Source of the DNA: a virus
Strand: one strand, 5' to 3'
Virus record (IMG/VR): IMGVR_UViG_3300050129_000187
Span: 1 to 39,430 of that record
DNA: 39,430 bases
The notes beneath the pieces were generated by a model. That model ran no database searches, was not told the origin of the DNA, and saw nothing but the letters and a program-made list of their open reading frames with translations. Shown here in pieces: positions 3,250-39,285 of this stretch; the stretch's first letter is position 1, and each line of letters opens with the position of its first letter. The position numbers were made by a program, and so were the translations under genes.

Positions 3250-4611
3250 TTAGGAATTTACGGTGAATGCATAAGGAGTCGGGATGTAAATGCCCGCAAC
3301 GCCGAAATGCGTCACCGAAACGTTGTATCCGCCGCCGGTATTCTTGATGTAGAGCTGGACCTCATCGCCGGCTGCGAGCGAGAGTGAGTCAGTGAATGAA
3401 ACTGGGGACGTGCTGCTCGACGAGTGGGTTGTTCCCACCGCGATGCCGTTCTTGTACACGAGAAAATCACCCGTCGCCGATCCTGAAGCTACGTAACCGT
3501 CCGTGATGATGGTATAAGTCCCGGATGGAAGCGACGCGGGGCAGGTGAACTGATGAACCTGCGTGTATGTTGAGCTCGTCGTGTTTGCTGCGCCGCAGTC
3601 GACGATGAGGATATTCCCGCTTGTTGGGTCGTAGATGCCGGCGCCTAGCGTACCGCTTACGGGAATAGTCCATTGAGGGTTCGCGCCTGATCCTTGGGTT
3701 TCAAGGACGTACCCACTCGTGCCGGGCGCGAGGGTCACCCATGAGGATCCGTTGAAATAGAGAAGGTCGCCCTGAGCCGGACTGGACGGCGCAAGAATGT
3801 ATTCCCCGTAAGGGTTCGAGATTGTCGGGCGCACGTCATTGTAGATGTATCCTTCGCCGCTCTGTTGATTCTCATTGTCGTAGAGCGCGGTTTCGCTGAC
3901 GACGTTGTAGAGCTCGCAAATCGGGACGACGCCTGTCGGATAGGCGGGAGCGGAAGGTGACGTGGATTCCGTGCCAGTCGTCCACGCGAGCGTTCCGGAC
4001 GAATTGATCGTGAGGACATCGATGCGCGGATGAGAACTGGGAGCCGTGACCGTCGGTGTCGAGCCGCCGGTAAAAAGATAGCGCGTTCCGCCTATGTAAT
4101 ACGTCCCGTCTTCCACATAGAGCTGCATCGTCTGTGCCGTCCATGAACCGCCCGTGACGGTGGTCGAAGCCGTAAAGCTCGTAAGGGCGCCCGAGATCCC
4201 GTTCACATTCTTGTTGAGCGAAAACGGGACGATGCTCGTGGACGAGCCCGGCAATGCGTACCCGCAATATTGGAGAAGCGTCTGGTTTCCTGCAGAGGCC
4301 GCAACTTGCGTCGCGCTCGTGAGATCGGGACGCCTTAGGAAGTTCACGAGGTTCAGCGCGGTCGCTGCGGCGGACGCGCCGATGAGGACATTGTTCGCGG
4401 TTGACCCGATTGCTGAAACGAAGGTGATCACAATCGCGGTGCCATTGATCGTAAGCGTAAGGGTATGGGTATTCGCGGGATTGGTGGGAAGTGCGATCGC
4501 GCCGAGCTGCTGATGCGCCAAAAGGAATCCGCCGCCGCGCGCGTCGTCGCGCCGGTCATTGTGATGGGAAGCCAAGATGTTCTGGTCGGTGCCGATTGGC
4601 CGGGATTTCAT
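3250..4611 (-). CDS. Tail fibre / baseplate structural protein
   Basis: A 453-residue, beta-rich, Ser/Thr/Gly/Asn-rich protein. The middle (about 155-270) has the style of phage fibre shafts (YVEDGTYYIGG, HPRIDVL), and residues 275-345 read like a tail-fibre linker (GDLLYFNGSSWVTL). The last ~100 residues resemble a small jelly-roll or Ig-like tip domain with YTIITDGYV and GDEVQLYIKNTGGG. It lies downstream of the hub and another tail protein, as expected for the distal tail. Receptor binding is an inference from position. Confidence 0.6.
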   Translation of the reverse strand: MKSRPIGTDQNILASHHNDRRDDARGGGFLLAHQQLGAIALPTNPANTHTLTLTINGTAIVITFVSAIGSTANNVLIGASAAATALNLVNFLRRPDLTSATQVAASAGNQTLLQYCGYALPGSSTSIVPFSLNKNVNGISGALTSFTASTTVTGGSWTAQTMQLYVEDGTYYIGGTRYLFTGGSTPTVTAPSSHPRIDVLTINSSGTLAWTTGTESTSPSAPAYPTGVVPICELYNVVSETALYDNENQQSGEGYIYNDVRPTISNPYGEYILAPSSPAQGDLLYFNGSSWVTLAPGTSGYVLETQGSGANPQWTIPVSGTLGAGIYDPTSGNILIVDCGAANTTSSTYTQVHQFTCPASLPSGTYTIITDGYVASGSATGDFLVYKNGIAVGTTHSSSSTSPVSFTDSLSLAAGDEVQLYIKNTGGGYNVSVTHFGVAGIYIPTPYAFTVNS

Positions 4612-15422: not shown

Positions 15423-16214
15423 CTATCTGCCTGAGGTACGCGCCTCCCTGATCTTTTCTTTGAACTGGCGAAGAGCATCCTCCGTGGCAGATTTGACCTG
15501 CCTCGCGAGTCGCTGCCCGAGTAGATATGCATCCAATTCGGCGCTTGCTCCCGAGGTGCTCGACCTTGAGTTCAGGGCCTTCTCGTCGCCTTCGGACTCA
15601 TCGTCCTTCGGCTTCGGGGAAGGTTCCTCCCCTCCGTCGCCGTCTTCGGAGCCGATAAGCTCCTTGAGGGCCGCGGTGACATCGTTGTGGTGGGAATCCA
15701 TCTTTTCCAAGACGGCTTTCAATTTCTCTTTGTTCTTGGCGGAAATGGCTCGTCCGGACTTTTCGGTCGCCTCTACGACGGCCTTCTTTTCATCGTCCTC
15801 GCCTTCGCCGAACTCCGCATCGCACATGGCCTTGTGGGCTTTCTCGTGGCGGTCAAGTTCGTCGCCTACCGCTTTCGTGAACTCCTCGATGGCCTTCGTC
15901 TTCCCGTCGTCTCCGTCGGCCGCTTCGTGTGCGGACTTGAACTCATCGATCGATTTGTCGATCGCCTTCACATGCTTCAAATGCTCGGCTTTCATCTCCG
16001 ACTTGAACTCATCGATAGACTTTTTCGGCGCCTGATCTTCGAGCGCATAGCTCTCGTCGATGGCCTTCATCGTGTTCTCTAGGTGTTCGTCCTGCTCGGA
16101 ATCCACCGCTTTCGTGAACCCGTCGATCGACTTGAATTCATCGATGGCCTTCGCAAAGGACTTTCCGTGCCGTTCGTGCTCTGCTTTGAATTTCTTTTCG
16201 AGTTCGTTGTTCAT
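15423..16214 (-). CDS. Probable nested scaffolding protein (in-frame internal start)
   Basis: An in-frame ATG at 16214 (residue 338 of the protease fusion) would make a 263-residue scaffold alone. It is preceded by AAATCAACCAAATCCGAATCA, which contains the AAATCAACCAAA string of the chaperone gene leader at 9772 and fits the A/C-rich leaders of this phage. It begins at the border between the low-complexity linker and the helical KAEH..H...IDEFKS repeats. Phage lambda makes scaffold Nu3 the same way from within the C protease gene. Confidence 0.5.
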   Translation of the reverse strand: MNNELEKKFKAEHERHGKSFAKAIDEFKSIDGFTKAVDSEQDEHLENTMKAIDESYALEDQAPKKSIDEFKSEMKAEHLKHVKAIDKSIDEFKSAHEAADGDDGKTKAIEEFTKAVGDELDRHEKAHKAMCDAEFGEGEDDEKKAVVEATEKSGRAISAKNKEKLKAVLEKMDSHHNDVTAALKELIGSEDGDGGEEPSPKPKDDESEGDEKALNSRSSTSGASAELDAYLLGQRLARQVKSATEDALRQFKEKIREARTSGR

Positions 16215-17225
16215 TGATTCGGATTTGGTTGATTTCGCGGGAACGCATACGAGGTGACCGGGATTCTTGTCGTCATCTGCGAGAACTCCCGGATCGCCGC
16301 TTTCCAGCTCGCAGGAATCGCCGAGTTGCGGCGACTTCTCCTCCGCCTTCTTTTCCCACGGCGGCGTTTCACCGAACTCCTCGTAATGTTTCGCGATATG
16401 GGCTTTGACGGCAGCAAGGTCACCGGAGGGAATTGCAACTCCCCCTCGGCCACCTTGTAAGGCAGCGGCCGCTGCTTTAACGCCGTTCCACACAGCTTTC
16501 TGATCGGACGCGCGGTGATGGGGGAGCTTGTAGGAGGACTTCACGTCCGTGTTTTCGGAATCGAACCATGCGCAAATGGACTTCAGTTTCTCGATGTCGT
16601 CGCCGCACGCTTTCACCTCCGCCGGGCCGTCCCATGACGTGTCCTGATCGGCGATGCCGTGGCTCTTGAAGGGGACCGCGCCTTTCGCGTCATAGAAAAA
16701 GCCCTTCGTCACGAGGTCGCCCGTCGATACGCCGAGTTCGCTCACCTGCCGCAAGGAAAGCGCGTATCGGCCGGCGGGCACCGGGCAGAAGGAAAGCTCC
16801 AAGAGCTCGCGCGTCCCGTCGTCGTTTTGGATGTAGCCGGGAGACACGGCGCGGATGACCTTCTGCTGATAGAGCGCGCAGACCATGTCGGCCGTCGGAT
16901 TCACGCCGGCGGGAGCGAATTTGCCGGTAGCGACCGCCTTGTCGCCCTGAATCTCGATGTCGGTCACGATGCCGATCGGGATCGACGAATAATCATGCGC
17001 CCAGAGGACGACGGGGTTCATCGTGTAGTACTTGAGATCCCATCGGGACTGGTCGAGCTCGTCGCCCTGACGGTCCTCGTCGGACGTGCTCATCACAACC
17101 TCAAAGCTCCGGTCGTCGCCGGAGGCTTTGGTCGCTTTCACGAAGTCTTCAACGGAAGCGGAAGCGAGAGCCGCTTTGAGTTTGTCTGCGAGGTCTTTGG
17201 GGAATGTCTTCAGCGATTCGGGCAC
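15423..17225 (-). CDS. Prohead protease fused to scaffold
   Basis: A 600-residue protein starting at GTG. Residues 40-165 form the HK97-family prohead protease: His77 in WAHDYSSIPIG and Ser128 in AVSPGYI are the catalytic candidates, with ELLELSFCPVPAGRYAL next. Residues about 190-305 are a conserved accessory domain (SWDGPAEVKA, YKLPHHRAS, VAIPSGDLAAVKAHIAKHYEEFGETPPW) found in such fusions. Residues 338-600 are highly charged and helical with repeats of the type KAIDEFKS, a scaffold-like region. Maturation protease and scaffold would thus be delivered as one chain that cleaves itself. Confidence 0.9.
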   Translation of the reverse strand: MPESLKTFPKDLADKLKAALASASVEDFVKATKASGDDRSFEVVMSTSDEDRQGDELDQSRWDLKYYTMNPVVLWAHDYSSIPIGIVTDIEIQGDKAVATGKFAPAGVNPTADMVCALYQQKVIRAVSPGYIQNDDGTRELLELSFCPVPAGRYALSLRQVSELGVSTGDLVTKGFFYDAKGAVPFKSHGIADQDTSWDGPAEVKACGDDIEKLKSICAWFDSENTDVKSSYKLPHHRASDQKAVWNGVKAAAAALQGGRGGVAIPSGDLAAVKAHIAKHYEEFGETPPWEKKAEEKSPQLGDSCELESGDPGVLADDDKNPGHLVCVPAKSTKSESMNNELEKKFKAEHERHGKSFAKAIDEFKSIDGFTKAVDSEQDEHLENTMKAIDESYALEDQAPKKSIDEFKSEMKAEHLKHVKAIDKSIDEFKSAHEAADGDDGKTKAIEEFTKAVGDELDRHEKAHKAMCDAEFGEGEDDEKKAVVEATEKSGRAISAKNKEKLKAVLEKMDSHHNDVTAALKELIGSEDGDGGEEPSPKPKDDESEGDEKALNSRSSTSGASAELDAYLLGQRLARQVKSATEDALRQFKEKIREARTSGR

Positions 17226-18520: not shown

Positions 18521-20332
18521 CTATTGGCAGAAAGATGGTTTTGTGGTGGTAACGACCTGAACCGCGCTTGAATTGATATAAACGTAGGCGAGCGTCGAGG
18601 TCGCGCCTTGCTCATAATATTCGGTGCATCCCGGCGTTGCACCAGATACGCCAAATCGTGTGCTCGATGCAATTTGAAGCATCGCGCTTGTCGTTGCCGT
18701 CTGGGAACCAATGTAGGTGCTGCCACCGACGTTCAGATAGTCCGACCCGGCGTTCCCGTGGCCAACAATAAGGGCTGCCACGTTTCCGTTCGGACTTGCA
18801 CCCTGCCCAATCCCGGCAGCGGTATCGGTGAGGGCGCCATATTGGTTGATGCTGAACGTGTCGCCTTCGGGGTCGCTCGCATAAATCCAATTTCCGAGTT
18901 GCGGGCCTGCATTGATATAGAGAGCCGTTGTGCTGCCTATCTGATTGATGGTGAGGGTATTTGTCGTTGAGGCCGTGGTGCTTCCGACGCCCAAAATCCC
19001 GGTTATCGATTCGTTGCCAAAGCTCGCAAAGGGACCGTAATAGCCCGTCGTGGTCGAGGCGTTTCCAGAGTAGAAATTATTAACTGCCGACGCATTATAA
19101 AGGCCATCAATGGTGAGATTGCCTCCACCGCTCGCAAAGAATGGTGTATCGGTCGCATTCGCATATTTGTAAATAATGCCGCCGGTATAATGGCACACCG
19201 CGCCCGCACCGCACGAAATCACTTCATTCATCGGCGACGAGGATGTCGGTGTCACGAGTTCGAAGTTGCCGCCGATCTCATCGAAGGATGTGTGCGTGTC
19301 GGAATCGATCACCTCGTAGTCATAATTCCCATAGGTCGCATAGGTCGGTTCCTCGTGATTCACGCCCAGGAGCGTCACATTCTGGTTGAACGTACCGACG
19401 TGGAGTTGGCAGTTATCGATCGATCCGCCTTCCCACGTGAGATTCTCGATGGAGCCGTTCTTGAACCACACGCAGTTTGATGACGATGAGTTCGCGGGAT
19501 CGACCGCGAAGACGCGCTGGAAATTGTCTGATTCTCCCGAATTGTTGGACTGTTCGATCTCGATGTCGCGGCCGTTACCCCGGAGTACGGTATCCTGCAA
19601 CCCCGTGTCATAGGTGTTGGCACCCATATCAAGGCCGATGCCGAATCCCGAGATGGTGAGGCCGCTATTGATCGAGTGGGCCGCGCCGCTCGTGCCCCCG
19701 AGATAGAGACCAACGATGGCATTCGTCGTCGTTGCAGACCCCGATGAATCGAGCCACAAATTATTGACGCCACCCCCCGAAAGGTGGGGGTTTGAATCGC
19801 CAAAGTTTTCAATCGTCGAGGTAGTGCCAGCCGCCCCTGTCCAAGTGAGATGCGTTCCGGGGCCGACGCCGTAGACGTTGCACCGTTGCGTGAGATTGAT
19901 TGCGGTCGAAAACGTGGAACTCATAGCCGGAAGATAAATGTTCAGCGATGAGGTAGCTTGTGGGGCGTAGGTATTGCAAAGAGAGTTTATGAACGTTCCG
20001 GGGTCGCCTGTTATCGTGCCGACGTATATGTTGGACGCATTGCCAAGGAGTGTGCTTGAAGCGAAGGTTTGATTCGCCGTCCATGTATTCGCCGTCGTTG
20101 TTGAAGCTCCCCCACCACCTCCACCTCCCGTCGAGGTCGAGACCACAACCCCGTACACCGAGAGCGTTCCCGATACGTTCACGTTGCCCGACAGGGTGCT
20201 TGTGGGGCCGATAACGACGTTCCCCGAACCGTCCACGGGAAGGTTCGTCCATGTAGAAGCCGATGCAAGCCCAATAGCCGAGAAGGCGCCGACGATGATT
20301 GCGGCCGAAACGAGGATACGTTTTATTGACAT
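18521..20332 (-). CDS. Exported beta-helix protein (tailspike/adhesin-like)
   Basis: A 603-residue protein. I chose the ATG at 20332 because it begins a classic signal peptide: MSIKR, hydrophobic core, then LASA before STWT. The middle (about residues 120-370) has the look of a right-handed beta-helix: INSGLTISGFGIGLDMG, GLQDTVLRGNGRDIEI, NLTWEGGSIDN. The end is rich in TTAS/TST and closes with TPGCTEYYEQGATSTLAYV. Beta-helices are common in tailspikes that bind or cut surface glycans, but a secretion signal is not usual for a tail protein. It overlaps the preceding gene by 10 bases. Confidence 0.7.
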   Translation of the reverse strand: MSIKRILVSAAIIVGAFSAIGLASASTWTNLPVDGSGNVVIGPTSTLSGNVNVSGTLSVYGVVVSTSTGGGGGGGASTTTANTWTANQTFASSTLLGNASNIYVGTITGDPGTFINSLCNTYAPQATSSLNIYLPAMSSTFSTAINLTQRCNVYGVGPGTHLTWTGAAGTTSTIENFGDSNPHLSGGGVNNLWLDSSGSATTTNAIVGLYLGGTSGAAHSINSGLTISGFGIGLDMGANTYDTGLQDTVLRGNGRDIEIEQSNNSGESDNFQRVFAVDPANSSSSNCVWFKNGSIENLTWEGGSIDNCQLHVGTFNQNVTLLGVNHEEPTYATYGNYDYEVIDSDTHTSFDEIGGNFELVTPTSSSPMNEVISCGAGAVCHYTGGIIYKYANATDTPFFASGGGNLTIDGLYNASAVNNFYSGNASTTTGYYGPFASFGNESITGILGVGSTTASTTNTLTINQIGSTTALYINAGPQLGNWIYASDPEGDTFSINQYGALTDTAAGIGQGASPNGNVAALIVGHGNAGSDYLNVGGSTYIGSQTATTSAMLQIASSTRFGVSGATPGCTEYYEQGATSTLAYVYINSSAVQVVTTTKPSFCQ

Positions 20333-23061
20333 GATGAGTTTGAAATTAGTTCTTGACCCGACGCTTTGTAATCCACATATACGGCTGTCCCCGACGCGGT
20401 GTACATGGTGTTGCACACGGAGGACGATGCCGTGCCTTCAATGATGGTGGTGGTTGCGGTTCCTGTGGCGACAAAAGAAGCAGTGGTACTTGCTGACGAA
20501 ACGACATTCAGTTGCGCCGTGCTGGTGGTTCCAGTCCCGACGGCGAGGTTTCCCCATACATCGGCCGAGCCGTTGACATCGAGCTTATTAACGGGAGCCG
20601 ATGCGCCACCGAGGTAAAGGCCGCCGCTTGTAATCTCACCGATGGTCGCGTTTTGAATCCGCAGGTATGTGGTCGTAGCGGCGTTCAGGTAGGTGCTTCC
20701 ACCATCCCCCAAGAATGAGTAGTTAGCGCAAGTCGGGGTGGATGCAAAGTTGATATAGGCGTACCCCGCAACACATCCCGCCGAGCCGAGCGTGATATTG
20801 ATGCCATTCGCGACGACGGTCGATGTTCCGGTCACATTCGCCGTTCCCGCGACATTCAGCGTCGCTGTGTTTGTCGTAGTCGTACCGACGGCAAGGACGG
20901 TCGCAGTCGTCGTTGCAAGGGTGGAGGTCTGGGATACATTCGCCGTTCCTACCACGTTCAAAGTTCCTTTTTGGGTTGAGGTTCCCACGGAGAGCGACGT
21001 TGCAAAATCACCGGTGCCGTTCACATGGAGGGTGTTGGCGTTCGGGAAGTCCTTTATCGCAACCGTCGAGGAATTGGCGATGACGGTCGCCCCTGAAAGG
21101 TTCGTTTCACTCACATTGCCGCCAAATCCGACCGCTCCATTGATTCCGTCCGTGATGGTGAAGGGGTCTGTCCATGCGCCATTGAAATAGTTGTAGAAGG
21201 CGAAGGACACATTGCCCCGCTGGGAAAACTGCCACTTGGTTTGGGTGGACGTACCCGATTCAAGCTGGAAGCTGACGTGGTTGCCTTGAACATCACTATG
21301 GATATTGATTCCTACGTCGCCGGGGAATGTGGCGGGAGTATATGCTTCAATCGCTCCCTCCGACGGCGCAGTCGTCGTGCCAAACACGCCTGTCCCAGAG
21401 AACGCTCCATTTGCGGCCGAAAGATTATAGGAGCCGATGTTGATATTCTGGTTCGCGTTCGAGCCGCTCAAGTTGAGATAGGTGGTCGCGGCAGTGGATG
21501 TCGAGAGGCACGTTGCGGTGAATTGCCCCGTGGACGTGGAATAGGTGAGGCATCCTGCGGCGGAAAGGGAATTGAGAACGCTTTGGATGGTGGTGGATGT
21601 GAAGCCCGAAGGATTGCCCGTGAGGGGATAGAACTCTGCCGTTCCCGAAGCCGTGGTTACAAAAACTCCGGGAACGACGGAATACGTTGTGCTTGCGCCA
21701 GACGTTGTTGATGTGATGGTCGAGCCATCGCCAAGAGCGGTGAAGGCAAGCGCGGGAGTGCCGTTGAGCGTCGTCGTCGTGAACGTGCCGCTCGGAATGG
21801 CGCAGGTGATGGTACCGGTCGCGGAGATCGTCTGGACGAAGTTGCCGCCGGTACAGCCCGCGCTCAGATTGAGGCTCAAGGTCGTCGTGGTACCGCTTAT
21901 GGAGGACGAAAGCCCCGAGCCTGCGACGATGCTGAAGCTCGTGCCGGACTGCCCGTTCACCGCGACCCCCGTGATGTAGTTCAGCGAGTTCGTCCAGCCG
22001 ATCGCGCCTGTCGATGCGTTGAAGGTGATGGGGCCAGTCCCGGAAAAGAGCGCGTAGAGCGTGCTCGTCGCGTAGGCGGTCGCGATGGATGTCGTCCCGG
22101 ATCCTGTTACCGCGCCCGTGAGCGTGATCGTCTGGTTTCCCGTAAGGCAGGTCGCACAGGTGAGGGTGAGGCCGGCGGTCGTAAGCGGTCCGCCGCCGCC
22201 GAGCGGGCCTGTCGTCGTCACGTTAATCCCCGACGGGAGATACGTATTGCCGTCGAACGTCCACGCGCCGCCGCTGTATTTCAGCGTTCCCGTGGCGAGG
22301 GCGGGGAGCGCTTTGCCCTCTAAGCCCGTGACCGTCATCGTATCGCTGATCATGGTCGTGCCGGTCGCGGTCCCCGTCGCGTCGCCCGCTGCGACGAACG
22401 TGATCGTCTGGTTGCCGGAGATATAGCCGCTCGGGTTCGACGCCTTGTAGAACGTCGAGCTGTTTACGCCTTGCCATGTTCCCTGCCAGTTGCCGGTGGT
22501 GACGATAGAGAACGTGGTGGTGGCTCCATTCACCGTGCTCGTGACGGTCGTGCCATCGCCAATGAGGTGGAAGACCGTTGCCTGCGTGCCGTTCACGGTC
22601 GTCGTCGCAGGGATCCCGATCGTGACGGCGCCGCTTTGGCCGTTCACGGTTGCGACGTAGGTTGTGCTCGAAGGAAGGAACTGGCCCGATGCCACGACAT
22701 CGGCGATCACGGTTGAAGTATTGACCGCGATCGTGCCGCTTGAAGTGATCGACGCCGGGCTGAGGGAGATCCCGTGTCCCGCCTGCAAGAGATACACGGT
22801 GCCGGTCGCGGTGCCGGTAACGCCGATCGTCACGCTCCCGCTTGCGTTCGTGATGACGATGTTGGCACCGGGAGTGAGGGTCGCGGGGGTATAGCTTCCC
22901 GAACCGTTGCCGATGGGAAGTTCGCCAGTGCTCGGAACGGTGCATGTCCCGGTCCCGCCGAGTGCCGCGGGGTTGCACCCTGCGCCGACGGCCCTGTCAA
23001 CTCCCCAAATCAAAAACAGAATGACGATGATGCTGAGGAGGATGAGTACAACGCGTTTCAT
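20323..23061 (-). CDS. Giant exported repeat protein (fibre/adhesin-like)
   Basis: A 912-residue protein. MKRVVLILLSIIVILFLIWGV is a signal or anchor helix; then come hundreds of residues of Thr/Gly/Ser/Ala-rich beta sequence with repeating units (NGQSG, TTTLNGT/TVNGT, GDGST, GNQTIT, TTTGPLGGGG). Near the C-terminus, KLDVNGSADVWGNLAVG resembles fibre ends that read 'NKLDVNG'. The sequence style recurs in phage fibres and in secreted proteins of Patescibacteria. Its ATG overlaps the upstream stop as ATGA, which suggests coupling. Confidence 0.65.
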   Translation of the reverse strand: MKRVVLILLSIIVILFLIWGVDRAVGAGCNPAALGGTGTCTVPSTGELPIGNGSGSYTPATLTPGANIVITNASGSVTIGVTGTATGTVYLLQAGHGISLSPASITSSGTIAVNTSTVIADVVASGQFLPSSTTYVATVNGQSGAVTIGIPATTTVNGTQATVFHLIGDGTTVTSTVNGATTTFSIVTTGNWQGTWQGVNSSTFYKASNPSGYISGNQTITFVAAGDATGTATGTTMISDTMTVTGLEGKALPALATGTLKYSGGAWTFDGNTYLPSGINVTTTGPLGGGGPLTTAGLTLTCATCLTGNQTITLTGAVTGSGTTSIATAYATSTLYALFSGTGPITFNASTGAIGWTNSLNYITGVAVNGQSGTSFSIVAGSGLSSSISGTTTTLSLNLSAGCTGGNFVQTISATGTITCAIPSGTFTTTTLNGTPALAFTALGDGSTITSTTSGASTTYSVVPGVFVTTASGTAEFYPLTGNPSGFTSTTIQSVLNSLSAAGCLTYSTSTGQFTATCLSTSTAATTYLNLSGSNANQNINIGSYNLSAANGAFSGTGVFGTTTAPSEGAIEAYTPATFPGDVGINIHSDVQGNHVSFQLESGTSTQTKWQFSQRGNVSFAFYNYFNGAWTDPFTITDGINGAVGFGGNVSETNLSGATVIANSSTVAIKDFPNANTLHVNGTGDFATSLSVGTSTQKGTLNVVGTANVSQTSTLATTTATVLAVGTTTTNTATLNVAGTANVTGTSTVVANGINITLGSAGCVAGYAYINFASTPTCANYSFLGDGGSTYLNAATTTYLRIQNATIGEITSGGLYLGGASAPVNKLDVNGSADVWGNLAVGTGTTSTAQLNVVSSASTTASFVATGTATTTIIEGTASSSVCNTMYTASGTAVYVDYKASGQELISNSSCQ

Positions 23062-23627: not shown

Positions 23628-25973
23628 TTAGATCGACACGGTGTCGGGCCGTATGAAGCAAGCGCAGAGCGGGTGAAGGGGTGGCGCGCTCACATCGCCG
23701 TAGTCGAGCGTCATGCTTTGCTCGCTGCCGTTCACGTCGGCCGTGACGCTGTCGCCGTTCTTGAAGAAATTGTCGTCAATGCCTACCACTTTGCCGTCCA
23801 TGGACTGGCAAAAGCCGCAGACGTTCGCAAGCTCGCTCGTGTACCAGCGGACGGTCTTTACGACGCCGGACTGCTTCCATGTGTCCTTGAGCGCGGCGTT
23901 TGCGGTCCTGAAGGATTCCGTTTTCGCGACCATCGCTGCGCGCTTCGCGTCCGACCACTCATAGATCTCCTCAACCGTCTTCGTGATGTCGGCAAGCGGC
24001 GCGCCTGATTGCAGGCCGTCATTAATCTTCGTCTCAAGGACCTCAAGCGTCGTCTGCTGGTAGCTCTCGGACATCTTCTGGACGCCCGCCTTCACGCCCG
24101 CGCGCGTCGTGTCGTTGAAGGGATTGAGCTCGGGCTTGCCGATGTCGGCCGCCGCGCTCCGCGCCTGATGCTCGAAGAGCGTTTCCATGATCGGCGTCAC
24201 GGCGTCCGTCGTGATCGAGATCCATTTGTCGATGCTGAAAAGGTCCTTGGGATTTACGCCCTTGCCGATCGCCGTGGGAAGGTTCGCGATAACTTCCGCC
24301 TTCTGCTCGCCGTTGATCTTGCGCATCGTCTCCGCGATGTCACGCTCGGCTTGCTCGGTATACTCGCTGAACTCTTTCCAGCGTGTCTCATCCTGTTCTT
24401 TTGTCGATTCAAACTTCTTGCCGGCGAGGTTCTTTGTGAGCGCCTCGGTGATGCTCTTTGTAAGCTCGTCCGCCATTGTCTGGCGTGCCTTTGCCCTGCT
24501 TGCGAGCTTCGTGCGCGCAGGTCTGAAAGCCACCCGCTGGCCGTTCGCGGCTTTCTGAATCTTGGCTTTGATCGCTTTCCGAAGCATCTTGCCCGCATCG
24601 CTCCCTCCGGCTGCTTCCGGCGCAACATCGCCGTCACCTTGGGGCTCTCCGACCGGACCCATCGTGCTCGGGGCCATGAGCACATCACCGCCTTCGACCG
24701 GCCCCAAGCCCATGAACTCGTCGCGCGCTTCGTTGATCGTGAGAATCGGCTGGCTCCCGACGGCCGCTTGCATCTCGGTCGTGCGCGCTCCGCGGTCCTC
24801 AGGCACGGGATCGATGAAACTGATGTAGAGGTTGTCGCCGTACTGCGGGACGAGCTTCTCGTTCAGGAAATCGCAGATGCGCTGCATGTGCGGCTTTATG
24901 ACGCGCTTCGAAAAGACATAGTCCGCCGTCTCCGCCGTCGCGCGGTTTGTGTCCGATTCGGCCGTGCCGAGGATCGTCTTCGACACACCGAACAAGGCGA
25001 GGATGCGGTCGCGCATATCCTCGGACAGGTTCTTGAAGTCCATGTCTTTCGGGCTCGAACCGGCGGGCGTCCATTTCACGCCCTTCGGAAGGACGCCGAT
25101 GCGCTGCATGTTGTCGATGCCGCCGTGGACGTCCATGAAGCCGATCTTGAGGGACTCCACCTGCGTCTCCGACACCATCTCCGTTTCGAGGAAGCCCGCC
25201 GGCCGGGCGCCGTTCACGAAGAACTTGCGGTTGAACTCCATCGCATAGTTGTCGTTGTCGATGAACTCCGCGCCCGCCTGCACAATGCCGCGGCCCTCGA
25301 AGAAATTCATCGGGTCCGGGGAGCGGAAGTGGATGATGCACGCGGGGTCGAACATGACGTTACGCGTTTCGAGCTTCATCTTGTAGCCAACGATGCGGTA
25401 CGGGAAGTGAACCTTGTCGATCACGGGATTAACCTTCGAAGGGTCGAGAAGGTAGATCGCGTCGGGCTTCGCGAGATCATCCTTCACCGGATTGCCCTTC
25501 GTATCGGTGAGGAGCCAATAGCACTTTCCCACGAGGTCGAGATGCGATGAGACGAGGTACTTGAGCTCTGACCCGATCATGTCCGGGTTCACGCCGTCCA
25601 AGAGATCGAGCAACGGATGCTGTTCCTTCTCGCGGTGGTCCTCGCCATCCACCTCGAAAAGACGAAAGTCGATGTTCTGCACTTCACGCGCTTTCGCGTT
25701 CACCGCCGCGTAGACGTAGCCGCGGTTGTTCGCGAGCGCTTTCTCGGGGTCGATGTGATGTCCGCCGCCCGGCCGCTCGATCGCGAACTGGTTGCCGCCC
25801 GTGTCGATGTCGCCGAACTTGCCGCCTACGGCTTTCGTGAGTCCGTAGCGGTTGAACGTCAATCCGCCCTGCGGCTGCTCATAGAGCTCGGGGTCGATGC
25901 GCGAAGCAATGCCGCGCATGAGGCGCGGGAACCAGCCGGGCTTGCCTTTGGAGTTGAGTGAGGGTGAAGCCAC
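23628..25973 (-). CDS. Portal protein fused to MuF-like minor head protein
   Basis: A 781-residue protein starting at GTG directly after an upstream TAA. Residues about 60-440 are the portal (AYVYAAVNAKAREV-like start, ACIIHFRSPDPMNFFEGRGIVQAG, NYAMEFNRKFFVNGARPAGFL and GVSKTILGTAES). Residues about 600-781 are MuF-like: a helix EIYEWSDAKRAAMVAKTESFRTANAA, then CGFCQSMDGKVV and PPLHPLCACFIRPD. This fusion of portal and MuF is known in some phages; MuF proteins are thought to enter the capsid through the portal. Confidence 0.9.
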   Translation of the reverse strand: MASPSLNSKGKPGWFPRLMRGIASRIDPELYEQPQGGLTFNRYGLTKAVGGKFGDIDTGGNQFAIERPGGGHHIDPEKALANNRGYVYAAVNAKAREVQNIDFRLFEVDGEDHREKEQHPLLDLLDGVNPDMIGSELKYLVSSHLDLVGKCYWLLTDTKGNPVKDDLAKPDAIYLLDPSKVNPVIDKVHFPYRIVGYKMKLETRNVMFDPACIIHFRSPDPMNFFEGRGIVQAGAEFIDNDNYAMEFNRKFFVNGARPAGFLETEMVSETQVESLKIGFMDVHGGIDNMQRIGVLPKGVKWTPAGSSPKDMDFKNLSEDMRDRILALFGVSKTILGTAESDTNRATAETADYVFSKRVIKPHMQRICDFLNEKLVPQYGDNLYISFIDPVPEDRGARTTEMQAAVGSQPILTINEARDEFMGLGPVEGGDVLMAPSTMGPVGEPQGDGDVAPEAAGGSDAGKMLRKAIKAKIQKAANGQRVAFRPARTKLASRAKARQTMADELTKSITEALTKNLAGKKFESTKEQDETRWKEFSEYTEQAERDIAETMRKINGEQKAEVIANLPTAIGKGVNPKDLFSIDKWISITTDAVTPIMETLFEHQARSAAADIGKPELNPFNDTTRAGVKAGVQKMSESYQQTTLEVLETKINDGLQSGAPLADITKTVEEIYEWSDAKRAAMVAKTESFRTANAALKDTWKQSGVVKTVRWYTSELANVCGFCQSMDGKVVGIDDNFFKNGDSVTADVNGSEQSMTLDYGDVSAPPLHPLCACFIRPDTVSI

Positions 25974-34385: not shown

Positions 34386-35183
34386 TTATTTGATCTTGAG
34401 AGTGCCGACGAGCTTGTAGAGCTTCATCTCTGTCTCCGACCGTTCAATGCGGAAGCTACCTGCGGTTTCCGGCGTGTAGCCATATGCCGCGAGGAAGTCC
34501 TGATAGTGTGCCTCCTTTTCGAGACGCTCTGTTTCTTCGCGTTCCTGACGCTCCCGATCTTCCCGCTCGCGCTGCTCGCGTTCAGCCTTTTCCTTCTGCT
34601 CACGATCAAGGCGTATACGTTCCTCCTGTCGCCCGCGTTCTTCGCGGTCCCGAAGCTCCTTCTCACGCTGTTGTTTGGCCTCCTCCTCGCGAAGTGCCGC
34701 GGCCCGCGCGTCCAAAGCTTTCTGGTCGGCCGCGTTCTTATCCGCTTGGCGCTGATTGAGGTAGCCCTCGAATTCGGGGCCGTCCATATCGAGGAGTACA
34801 TCGTCGGCAACCTCGATGCCGTCGCCGATGGCCGTGAGACGTTCATGCCGATGCGGCAGAAGCTCCACTCGCTCATTGCGCAGCATTTCCTCTTCTGCCT
34901 TTTCCTCAATCGCGGCGAGGCGCTCCTCCTCCGGCTCGATGATCGCAACAAACTCATTCTCTAGGGCGATGACGGCATTCCGGAACTTGTTCGCGTCATC
35001 GCGCATGGCCTTACCGGTCTTCTCGATCTTCACGCGCATGTTTTTCAGATCGATGCGCGCCCGTGTGATTTTTGCAAGCTGCGCCCTGTCGGCGAGGTCC
35101 GAAAGCGTGAGGCCCTTCGTTTCCTCAACCATCCTGACAAGCTCCGCCTTCGTCGGGCTGAATTTCTCAAGCTGCAATTCCAT
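34386..35183 (-). CDS. Long coiled-coil protein in the recombination operon
   Basis: A 265-residue protein, nearly all helical. It starts MELQLEKFSPTKAELVRMV, passes through IDLKNMRVKIEKTGKAMRDDANKF, and has a strongly charged stretch (about 140-230) of Arg/Glu/Gln/Lys, then ends with ERSETEMKLYKLVGTLKIK. This plan resembles phage proteins often found next to recombinases (DUF1351-like). I chose the ATG at 35183; its leader CTCACCCACCGAATCGC is A/C-rich. It overlaps the ATPase gene by 17 bases. Confidence 0.65.
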   Translation of the reverse strand: MELQLEKFSPTKAELVRMVEETKGLTLSDLADRAQLAKITRARIDLKNMRVKIEKTGKAMRDDANKFRNAVIALENEFVAIIEPEEERLAAIEEKAEEEMLRNERVELLPHRHERLTAIGDGIEVADDVLLDMDGPEFEGYLNQRQADKNAADQKALDARAAALREEEAKQQREKELRDREERGRQEERIRLDREQKEKAEREQREREDRERQEREETERLEKEAHYQDFLAAYGYTPETAGSFRIERSETEMKLYKLVGTLKIK

Positions 35184-36120
35184 GCGATTCGGTGGGTGAG
35201 TCTTTACCGACCTTTTCCGTCCCCTCGAACACGGTCTTGTACGCCGTCTTCTTGTCCTCGATCGCGACGAGGGCATCCACGATCGCCTGCAGCTTATCGT
35301 CCGCAAGCTCGATGCCGGTGAGCTTCTTGACCGCGATCGAAAGGAACTGCCGCGTCTCAACCTTGTCGGCGGGGACGGGGATCTCAAGCCGCTCGAACTG
35401 GCCCATGATCTCGCGCTTCAAGGCGCCGGTGTCCGCCCGGCCTTCCTCAAGCCACTTCGACAAGCGGGCGCCCGTCTGCTCGTCCATGATGAACACCTCG
35501 TCCTTGAACATGTTCGTGCGGTCCTTCGTCGCCTTCGCATAGTGGTCCTGCGAAACGTCGAAGAACACCGTGAACTCGTACTCCATCCCCTCGCGCTGGA
35601 CCGGCGCAAGGCCGAGCTTTTTCACGCTCGCTTTGCCCTTGTCGTCGGTCTCCATCGCGTATTCCTGTTTGCTGCGCATGGTGCCGATGATGTGCCGCGG
35701 GCTGTTCAAGAGCGCGTTCACGAGCCGGCGATGCTGCGGGGTGAGGTCGGCCCAGAGGGTGAACCGGTTCTTGCCGCTGTTCTGCATCTTGTCCGCCTGA
35801 TCGAGGATGCCGCCCTCGTCGCTCCAGAAATGCGAGAGGGAATCGATGATGATGACGCTGAAGTTTGCCTTCTCCGCCGCGTGGATCGCGTCGATGAGAA
35901 GGTCCGGCTTGAACGGTGGCTCAAGGCTGATGACGCTGTAGTCGTAGAGATTGGCGTAAAGATCGCCCGAACCGCGCTCCGTGTCGATGAGGCATACGGT
36001 GCCGCCGATCCCCTTTGCGACCTTCAATGCGCTCATCGTCTTTCCTGACCCTGACGGACCCGCCAGACCCAAGCGCAGTTTTGACTTCACGCGCTCGGCT
36101 TTCCTGATTTCAATTGCCAT
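35167..36120 (-). CDS. Sak4-like RecA-type ATPase (recombinase)
   Basis: A 317-residue protein: Walker A GPSGSGKT at 21-28, a DTERG motif at 46-50, Walker B VIIIDSLSH ending with Asp93, and helical C-terminal regions. This is the AAA_24/Sak4 pattern, ATPases that act with SSB in phage single-strand annealing. The gene order ATPase, coiled coil, SSB agrees. Leader AACAACCAACACA. Confidence 0.85.
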   Translation of the reverse strand: MAIEIRKAERVKSKLRLGLAGPSGSGKTMSALKVAKGIGGTVCLIDTERGSGDLYANLYDYSVISLEPPFKPDLLIDAIHAAEKANFSVIIIDSLSHFWSDEGGILDQADKMQNSGKNRFTLWADLTPQHRRLVNALLNSPRHIIGTMRSKQEYAMETDDKGKASVKKLGLAPVQREGMEYEFTVFFDVSQDHYAKATKDRTNMFKDEVFIMDEQTGARLSKWLEEGRADTGALKREIMGQFERLEIPVPADKVETRQFLSIAVKKLTGIELADDKLQAIVDALVAIEDKKTAYKTVFEGTEKVGKDSPTESHGIAA

Positions 36121-37021: not shown

Positions 37022-37174
37022 CTAGCTGGGGATAACTTGCCGGCGCTTGTACGCCCTGTTATACGCGCGGATTTTGGCCCTATTCTTGGCCCGATATGCC
37101 CGATGGAAGGCGTTGTATGCTTTGCGTCCGGCGCGTTTGCCGAGTTTATTCGTAAACGTGGAGAGGTTAGGCAT
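37022..37174 (-). CDS. Small basic DNA-binding-like protein
   Basis: A 50-residue protein, MPNLSTFTNKLGKRAGRKAYNAFHRAYRAKNRAKIRAY and so on: very rich in Lys, Arg and Tyr. Its ATG overlaps the methyltransferase stop as TGATG, a classic coupling. Short basic proteins of the 'RAYRxKNRxKIRAYNRAYKRR' type are frequent in phages and might pack or bind nucleic acid. Confidence 0.6.
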   Translation of the reverse strand: MPNLSTFTNKLGKRAGRKAYNAFHRAYRAKNRAKIRAYNRAYKRRQVIPS

Positions 37175-38325
37175 CAGAGATGTTCTATCGTTTTGATTGC
37201 TTCAAAGATTTGTTCTGCGACTTGCGGAACCCATGCGTTGCCCGCGCCCTTGAGGGCGGCATTTCTCCAGCCTCTAGGTCGAGCCAGTCCTCCGGGTAGC
37301 CCATCATCCACAACGCAAAGCCGGGTTGCAGCCGTAAGCCAACTTTCGCTCCATGCTCCATGAGTGAACCGAGTGATCGGTCCGACTGGTTCTTTGCTTT
37401 GGGATCGAACTTTTTTCCATGGCCCCGTTTCGTTATCGTGGCATCTGGTGTTGGGAGAAGCGCTATCCTCGCCGACAAGTGAAGCGATCCCGTACCGTCG
37501 CGAGAGTTCGGCCCTCCCTTCTGCCCTTCGCTTGCTCTCGGAGTGGGAAGCATGTTTCCGTATACCAGTCGCGTTGCGAGATGAGTGCTCTTGTGAGGGG
37601 GGCGTCCCGTCGTTCTCGGAAGTCCCATCATTCCGTCCGTCGCTTTTGGCGTGGGAAGAAGTGTTTGAACCTTCACTGCGAGGGAAGTGATTGTTTTGCG
37701 CGGCCCTCCTTTCATGCGTGCCTTCATCGCGAGATGCGCTTCCGGTGTTTTCCCGTCGTCGCGCGCTACGACGGTTGGCAACAATCCAGACCCTATCCCT
37801 TCGGTGGGGCGCATTGACGGCGACAGCTGGAATAATGAACGGCCGTACTTCGTAACCTTCCGCTTCCAAGTCAGCGCACACTTGTTCGAGTACCATGCCT
37901 TCGTTCCAAGTAACAAAGCCGCCAACATTTTCACCGACGATCCATCGCGGCCGGAACTCTCGAATAACCCTAAACATTTCAGGCCAGAGGTAGCGGTCGT
38001 CCGCCGTTCCCTTTCTTCGTCCGGCTTGGCTGAAGGGCTGGCACGGGAATCCGCCCGTAAGGATAAATATGCCACTCTCGCGGGTAGGCCGTTGCGGGGA
38101 TCGTTTGCTATGTTCCCGCGTTTCTCGGCATCGTTTGCTCGCGGCGTCGGAAGTAAAGGTTCGTATGTCGCCATGGATTTGTGCGTGAGGCCAATGTTTC
38201 TTGAGGACGGCTTGGCAGAAGGGGTCTATCTCGCAAAATGTGTGATTGAAGGTGTCTTTTCCGAATACGTTGTCGAGTGCATAACTCGATCCTCCGATGC
38301 CGGAGAACAGGTCTAAGTGTTCCAT
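37174..38325 (-). CDS. C5 cytosine DNA methyltransferase
   Basis: A 383-residue enzyme: motif I DLFSGIGG at 5-12, catalytic Cys95 in GGFPCQPFS, ENV at 132-134, PHRRDRVW at 173-180 and GNAWVPQVA near the end. Together they transfer methyl from S-adenosylmethionine to cytosine C5. It could protect phage DNA from host restriction; no partner endonuclease was seen. Residues about 184-325, where a target-recognition domain should be, are rich in Ser, Arg, Asn, Asp and look disordered. The same DNA is open in a second frame. Confidence 0.9.
   Translation of the reverse strand: MEHLDLFSGIGGSSYALDNVFGKDTFNHTFCEIDPFCQAVLKKHWPHAQIHGDIRTFTSDAASKRCRETREHSKRSPQRPTRESGIFILTGGFPCQPFSQAGRRKGTADDRYLWPEMFRVIREFRPRWIVGENVGGFVTWNEGMVLEQVCADLEAEGYEVRPFIIPAVAVNAPHRRDRVWIVANRRSARRRENTGSASRDEGTHERRAAQNNHFPRSEGSNTSSHAKSDGRNDGTSENDGTPPSQEHSSRNATGIRKHASHSESKRRAEGRAELSRRYGIASLVGEDSASPNTRCHDNETGPWKKVRSQSKEPVGPITRFTHGAWSESWLTAATRLCVVDDGLPGGLARPRGWRNAALKGAGNAWVPQVAEQIFEAIKTIEHL
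37185..38174 (-). CDS. Overlapping LPTP-type protein in the +1 frame of the methyltransferase
   Basis: A 329-residue frame, entirely inside the methyltransferase gene. It carries repeated LLPTP-type motifs (residues 7, 131, 172, 208, 239) and the stretches SGLKCLGLFESSGRDGSS, CALTWKRKVTKYGRSLFQL and LQPGFALWMMGYPEDW. I recall these from phage proteins annotated as methyltransferases or hypotheticals, but have not checked. Its ATG has an AAATCC leader like the core genes. It may be a real dual-coded protein, or it may look conserved only because the methyltransferase motifs in the other frame constrain it. Confidence 0.4.
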   Translation of the reverse strand: MATYEPLLPTPRANDAEKRGNIANDPRNGLPARVAYLSLRADSRASPSAKPDEERERRTTATSGLKCLGLFESSGRDGSSVKMLAALLLGTKAWYSNKCALTWKRKVTKYGRSLFQLSPSMRPTEGIGSGLLPTVVARDDGKTPEAHLAMKARMKGGPRKTITSLAVKVQTLLPTPKATDGMMGLPRTTGRPPHKSTHLATRLVYGNMLPTPRASEGQKGGPNSRDGTGSLHLSARIALLPTPDATITKRGHGKKFDPKAKNQSDRSLGSLMEHGAKVGLRLQPGFALWMMGYPEDWLDLEAGEMPPSRARATHGFRKSQNKSLKQSKR

Positions 38326-38691: not shown

Positions 38692-39285
38692 ATGTTGGAC
38701 TTTCAAGCGATCAAGGCGATCCCATTGACCCAAGTGCTTCAGAAATATGGGATCGCCCTTACCTTCGGTGGGAAGTACGCCAAGGCGAAATGTCCGCTCC
38801 CGACCCATAAGGACGGAGACAGGGACAAGAACTTCAACATCAACCTCGAAGGCAATTTCTGGAAGTGTTGGTCTGGCTCTTGCAATGAGAAGGCCGGCGC
38901 CAAAGGCGGGGACACGATCAATTTTGTCGCCCTCATGGAAAACTGCCCACAGCACGAGGCCGCGAAGAAATTGGCGGAATGGTTCCACGTCCCCGAGACG
39001 CAAAAGCCCGGCACTCCTATCGAGCACCGGGCATCTGAGAAGTCCCGCATAGGGAAATTCCAAAAGGACTCTTCAGACCATACCAGTCCGAGCGGTAGCG
39101 TCAAGGTGGACACAAAGGGCTACATGCAGGACGTGGACCGCTGGTTCGATGAAATGATCGCGCGCGGGGATCAGGAGGATGATGAACAATACCTTCACCG
39201 CATCCGCAATGCGGTCAAATCGAGACTTGTTCAGAGCTTTCGGAATGGGAAGAGGGTCGCTCAAGGGCTTCTTCCCGAATCTTAG
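38692..39285 (+). CDS. Primase-type CHC2 zinc-finger protein (lacks catalytic domain)
   Basis: A 197-residue protein. The first 100 residues are a CHC2 primase zinc domain: VLQKYGIALTFGG, CPLPTH (Cys34, His39), FWKCWSGSC (Cys59, Cys64) and GGDTINFVALMENCPQHEAAKKLAEWF. No TOPRIM or helicase domain follows; the rest is hydrophilic and helical. It could recognise DNA or act with a host primase or helicase. AGGAGGT before the ATG is a perfect ribosome site. Confidence 0.8.
   Translation: MLDFQAIKAIPLTQVLQKYGIALTFGGKYAKAKCPLPTHKDGDRDKNFNINLEGNFWKCWSGSCNEKAGAKGGDTINFVALMENCPQHEAAKKLAEWFHVPETQKPGTPIEHRASEKSRIGKFQKDSSDHTSPSGSVKVDTKGYMQDVDRWFDEMIARGDQEDDEQYLHRIRNAVKSRLVQSFRNGKRVAQGLLPES

Follow-up and report, generated by a model that had tools for sequence, protein, structure and literature searches.

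A phage C5 cytosine methyltransferase probably encoded across two overlapping reading frames

The methyltransferase locus and its two open frames

The window analysed here is the whole 39,430 nucleotide stretch of a viral record (IMG/VR IMGVR_UViG_3300050129_000187), which is otherwise tailed-phage-like, with portal, tape measure and tail proteins. On its minus strand, a C5-methyltransferase gene (ORF A, or alpha) wholly contains a second open frame (ORF B, or beta) in its +1 frame. The features of both frames are given below.

37174..38325, minus strand: ORF A (alpha), 383 aa, C5-methyltransferase carrying motifs I-VIII and X but not IX
37185..38174, minus strand: ORF B (beta), 329 aa, +1 frame of A, LPTP repeats and motif IX
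38290..38316, minus strand: motif I (LDLFSGIGG), frame A, read from the translation
38075..38156, minus strand: LPTP module at the N-terminus of B (LLPTPRANDAEKRGN...GLP), facing the enlarged loop that separates motifs I and IV of A
38029..38055, minus strand: motif IV (GGFPCQPFS, catalytic Cys95), frame A, from the M.HhaI alignment
37800..37997, minus strand: conserved N-terminal domain of B (TTATSGLKCLGLF...WYSNKCALTWKRKVTK..LFQL), opposite motifs IV-VIII of A, predicted beta hairpin
37792..37812, minus strand: motif VIII (APHRRDR), frame A, beyond which selection goes to frame B
37340..37786, minus strand: four further LPTP modules, frame B, putative target-recognition region, opposite an unconstrained linker of A
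37281..37331, minus strand: motif IX (LQPGFALWMMGYPEDW), frame B, from a B-derived matrix compared with canonical methyltransferases
37204..37242, minus strand: motif X (GNAWVPQVAEQIF), frame A, homologous segment in frame B of split relatives

ORF A carries motifs I, IV, VI, VIII and X in one chain and matches phrog_363 (9e-66), together with Pfam PF00145 (2.3e-39) over residues 1-237 only. Its best PDB match, M.HhaI, covers only residues 88-186, in an alignment spanning motifs IV-VIII. Since the Pfam match stops at residue 237 and the PDB match is confined to residues 88-186, the later part of A looks non-canonical, in agreement with a preceding sequence-only reading that had described the target-recognition region of this methyltransferase as looking disordered. 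The same reading had reported a 329-codon +1 frame open inside the gene, carrying five LLPTP-type repeats and Trp/Cys-rich blocks, and these elements have been recovered: ORF B (37185-38174, minus strand) is open over its 329 residues, the five repeats lie at approximately residues 7, 131, 172, 209 and 239, and a W/C-containing block is present (KAWYSNKCALTWK). It had further attributed to the ATG of B a leader like that of other genes, which could not be upheld, as no Shine-Dalgarno-like leader occurs there (ggcctcacgcacaaatccATG).

The +1 frame runs for 346 codons without a stop inside A, a length that 5000 synonymous-codon shuffles of A attained only twice (mean 142); the longest run in the +2 frame is 71 codons and is ordinary (1915 of 5000 shuffles). 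When searched against profiles, B matches phrog_1008, a family labelled 'DNA methyltransferase' (1.3e-32; residues 39-302 against 40-283 of 329), with no match in Pfam or NCBIfam.

The gene is neighboured by a phrog_1366 / Sak4-like ATPase (35167-36120, minus strand) and a small primase-like zinc-finger protein (38692-39285, plus strand). Elsewhere in the window, the portal protein gene (23628-25973, minus strand) is faced on the opposite strand by a 513-codon open frame (24009-25550, plus strand), possibly driven by codon usage, and three large minus-strand ORFs have no PHROG match (15423-17225, 600 aa; 20323-23061, 912 aa; 3250-4611, 453 aa).

Distribution among relatives and selection in both frames

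Relatives were sought in two scans of IMG/VR, one of them using A alone as the query, and B was located in the +1 frame of A in 159 of 159 loci. Further scans were carried out with a fused query, with a split query and on bacterial genomes, the loci being classified by matrices for motifs IX and X. Motif IX lies in +1 and motif X in A in 146 of the 157 IMG/VR viral loci and in 75 of the 80 bacterial loci (Bacteroidota, Bacillota, Patescibacteria and others). Split loci, in which A ends right after motif VIII (for example L001, L021, L057 and L058), hold IX and X both in B. In a third, actinobacteriophage-rich set, frame A holds both IX and X in 36 of 62 loci, where +1 retains the B domain and the LPTP modules, and in other phages motif X, or IX and X along with the LPTP repeats, has been found in the opposite frame. 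At least 17 changes on the tree of A are needed to account for the three arrangements, and parts of the enzyme shift between frames during evolution in these loci. Hundreds of sequences from phages and bacteria show the two-frame layout. Three fused loci from actinobacterial prophage methyltransferases (L206, L208 and L209) had been taken to lack B; this was rejected, motif VIII having been misplaced and B being present. In the same three genes, roughly 80 residues (SRWNRICALIDSKIERAK..WWHGQYRTRKQFE) are inserted in frame A between motif VI and motif VIII.

For the 69 relatives whose GC content is under 42%, the median open stretch at motif VIII is 295 codons in +1 (minimum 163) and 44 in +2, and canonical AT-rich controls have 22 open +1 codons at that point. 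Among nested loci, 217 of 262 exceed all 100 synonymous shuffles for the open +1 frame. In one canonical monomeric C5-methyltransferase, from the Clostridioides difficile plasmid pJ21_1 (L176, 1453-2601, 30% GC), 155 codons of the +1 frame (1610-2074) are free of stops and match the B-domain profile weakly, which may be either a ghost of the conserved motifs or a relic of a two-frame state.

Traces of the second frame also occur in deposited annotations. In the Paenibacillus phage Diva, the B homologue g50 lies inside g49, the DNA-cytosine methyltransferase, and bears the entry 'g49 internal gene'; in the Gordonia phage Float294 and in Jarcob the homologue is the second of two 'DNA methylase' genes, and in KBurrousTX its product is a 'hypothetical protein'. 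Other entries misplace or omit B (L168 gene 80, L169 and L170): the start of KBurrousTX gene 80 (L168) seems too late, B of Gudmit has been left unannotated, and Jarcob genes 69/70 cut the overlap. No published description of the phage family was found in a partial literature search.

Nei-Gojobori rates were obtained for 43 disjoint pairs of relatives, 10 of them with bacterial loci, with bootstrapping over pairs. The closest matches to A of the window reach about 46% at best over the full length and no close relative of the window was in hand, so that selection was measured in the family and not in the window sequence itself. Because the Nei-Gojobori method disregards overlap, rates inside the overlap are only descriptive, and it is the contrast between regions that constitutes the evidence. 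Past motif VIII, dN/dS is 0.22 (0.17-0.27) for B and 1.30 (1.16-1.46) for A, the latter being 0.12 in the A-only N-terminal part, 0.22 in the 70 codons preceding motif VIII and 0.15 after the B stop. The dS of A is 0.96 upstream of those 70 codons, 0.33 within them and 1.30 beyond the B stop, which places their value 2.9-fold (2.2-3.8) below the N-terminal A-only part and 3.9-fold below the part after the B stop. Frame B is under weaker constraint before motif VIII than later, with a dN/dS of only 0.73. Among four-fold sites of A, the fraction that differs is 0.50 for the AT-rich set in the A-only N-terminal part and 0.54 for the GC-richer set in the A-only tail, and in the LPTP region it falls to 0.06-0.08 in both sets alike. 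Canonical control pairs, although few (n=3), have no fall in dS before motif VIII (0.34 versus 0.38) and an A-frame dN/dS of 0.14 after it. In 18 pairs of fused forms, dN/dS goes at the B stop from 1.39 to 0.27 in A and from 0.34 to 1.56 in B.

Over the catalytic motifs ahead of that switch after motif VIII, both A and B are constrained in relatives, and in the fused forms the selected frame switches at the B stop. To our knowledge, long same-strand overlaps that are conserved in several bacterial phyla and in phages, with selection demonstrable in both frames, have rarely been documented in prokaryotes.

Complementary motifs and interpretation of the locus

The C-terminal motif of B, L.P.[FW]VEW[LM]MG[FY]P..W, matches motif IX, and with a matrix derived from B the known motif IX comes out at rank one or two of all sequence windows in 7 of 8 canonical methyltransferases. 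A matrix scan of the A frames of nested relatives found no motif-IX-like site. For the motif X segment, nested Diva A and the split B of L021 are homologous (59% over 58 aa, 2e-21), and a second comparison of Diva A with the C-terminus of a split B protein gave 48% over 82 aa (1e-20); split B tails obtained no score in Pfam, motifs IX-X being too short. In prophi104-2, gene 17 holds motifs I-VIII, LPTP modules, IX and X in one chain, which matches both phrog_363 (3.3e-78) and phrog_1008 (1.4e-62). With motif IX in B, motifs I-VIII and X in A, and a one-frame form in prophi104-2, A and B are read as complementary parts of one enzyme.

The sequence-only reading had offered two alternatives, a dual-coding gene or a database family arising from the alternative frame of methyltransferase genes, and both hold: B is conserved and selected, and the phrog_1008 'LPTP' proteins overlap a C5-methyltransferase in essentially every classified locus. 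PHROG_1008 'DNA methyltransferase' is an internal protein family in the second frame of C5-methyltransferase genes. Stops in close relatives, or a lack of purifying selection beyond what A imposes, would have counted against B; the +1 frame stays open in the AT-rich relatives, and after motif VIII it is B that is constrained and not A. What escaped that reading, judging from the sequence comparisons, is that B bears motif IX, that motif X shifts between frames and that A and B are complementary halves rather than unrelated proteins.

A monomeric C5-methyltransferase would have motif IX and the target-recognition domain in the same chain, a condition that A of the window fails, and an M.AquI-type enzyme would have IX and X both in the second chain, which is excluded here by motif X lying in A. 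The window and 146 of the 157 viral loci satisfy the definition of the M.EcoHK31I type, with a large chain carrying I-VIII and X and a small chain carrying IX. It is very likely that the locus encodes one C5 cytosine methyltransferase across two overlapping frames, probably as two polypeptides that assemble as one enzyme. It is best read as a two-subunit methyltransferase of the M.EcoHK31I type (alpha I-VIII and X, beta IX), the activity of the heterodimer being inferred. As far as can be told without expression, proteomic or biochemical data, both frames are conserved, their motifs are complementary and selection passes from one frame to the other; that B is translated from a start of its own and forms a heterodimer with A is inferred, as are the role of the LPTP repeats and the biological role.

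According to this two-polypeptide model, alpha would bring motifs I-VIII, for SAM binding and catalysis, together with the motif X helix at its C-terminus, while beta, from its own start inside alpha, would supply the small domain, comprising a conserved N-terminal W/C-containing domain, LPTP modules likely contacting the DNA target, and motif IX. Past motif VIII, frame A would be a mere linker carrying motif X, and two chains would therefore have to assemble for an active enzyme. The phage would use the enzyme to methylate its own DNA against host restriction. Frame A cloned alone would probably yield a dead enzyme. In annotation pipelines, only one of the frames is kept, the start of B is misplaced, or both frames receive the name 'DNA methyltransferase'.

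The start codon of B remains unproven: an ATG stands at the start of the B domain in 57 of 95 loci, but it is partly forced by the conserved Asp-Asp of A, and an upstream ATG is not more frequent in loci with an upstream module. A programmed +1 ribosomal frameshift near motif VIII, joining motifs I-VIII of A to the LPTP region and motif IX in the B frame without any separate B, would suit the passage of selection from A to B near that motif and the existence of relatives with everything in one frame. Nonetheless, frame B is constrained well ahead of motif VIII and its LPTP modules occur even before motif IV, and separate initiation of B is favoured for these reasons; moreover, in nested forms a frameshifted product would be without motif X, and fused forms retain the B domain in +1. 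Frameshifting is accordingly considered unlikely.

Still less probable is that B is a separate protein with another function, such as a regulator, an inhibitor or a DNA-binding partner, that merely overlaps the methyltransferase. Besides the lack of a Pfam match, this idea can draw on the absence of a confident fold. AlphaFold2 gave no confident global fold for B of the window alone (pLDDT 58) or for a short relative (pLDDT 65), with a pTM of 0.28 for the models of B alone, and predicted a beta hairpin in the conserved N-terminal domain. Foldseek matched the window B model to nothing in the PDB, and PDB sequences gave no match to the B alignment (HMM search) nor to the motif IX segment or a split B tail (phmmer). 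The missing fold in these models would be consistent with B folding together with A, without being proof of it. B bears, however, a motif IX that is absent from A, and in relatives motif X as well, and segments of A and B occur in one chain in prophi104-2.

It is highly improbable that B is a non-coding frame that appears conserved only through the conservation of A. The weak +1 match of the canonical L176 gene indicates that profile matches over motifs IV-VIII can be such ghosts, and B-domain profile matches were for this reason not used as proof; yet past motif VIII it is A that is not conserved (1.30) and B that is (0.22), synonymous sites of A are suppressed, and +1 frames remain open in AT-rich genomes. 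A selfish out-of-frame insertion, for which the hidden HNH endonuclease reported in the ShiLan phage methylase provides a precedent of overlapping frames (PMC11855218), can be practically dismissed, as no HNH endonuclease family was matched in the alternative frame in Pfam, PHROGs or NCBIfam, and B overlaps conserved motifs instead of forming an insertion, occurs in nearly all members without presence/absence polymorphism in the loci seen, and holds an enzyme motif.

Within the two-subunit enzyme, the LPTP modules follow motif VIII and precede motif IX, where canonical enzymes have their target-recognition domain, and from this position alone it is inferred that the repeats are likely the target-recognition region, reading DNA. 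The same modules recur at differing ordinal positions across many loci, the TPEAHLAMKARMKGG module being present in 24. In 25 loci including the window, a module lies ahead of the B domain, opposite an enlarged A loop before motif IV; in A of the window the spacing from motif I to motif IV is 81 residues, compared with a median of 61. More speculatively, and without our considering it the probable case, these loci may form a relay-coded enzyme family in which recognition modules and motifs IX and X move freely between two overlapping frames. The LPTP modules would then be mobile target-recognition units, roughly one for each target sequence, open to exchange and to insertion into either frame, including the stretch opposite the catalytic domain, and the result would be multispecific phage methyltransferases. 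If the modules do set specificity, the loci would constitute a ready library on how phages gain and swap methylation targets.

Comparison with known systems

The ShiLan methylase, with its out-of-frame HNH insertion (PMC11855218), represents a different phenomenon from the window locus. Diva g49/g50 resembles the window locus in layout, an internal gene homologous to B lying in a methyltransferase gene, but its annotation provides no function or selection analysis and names the product 'hypothetical protein'. PHROG_1008 includes B by its match to residues 39-302, although the family label is silent on its members overlapping C5-methyltransferase genes in another frame.

M.AquI is a split C5-methyltransferase with motifs I-VIII apart from IX-X (PMC3404938). 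The split relatives Float294, KBurrousTX, L021 and L057 are similar, with one chain for I-VIII and a second for IX-X. The window differs in keeping motif X in alpha, and here the N-terminal domain of beta overlaps motifs IV-VIII of alpha in another frame.

In M.EcoHK31I, the small chain is coded in another frame inside the large chain (309 and 176 aa). In this natural two-polypeptide C5-methyltransferase, the large chain contributes motifs I-VIII and X and the small chain motif IX, the target-recognition domain having been assigned to the large chain (PMC3404938). The window shares this division of motifs, a likeness in motif division only, with no data on homology. When compared to M.EcoHK31I, the position of the recognition region appears to differ, since at the place of target recognition the stretch of A is unconstrained (1.30) and it is the LPTP region of B (0.22) that sits there, as judged by position only.
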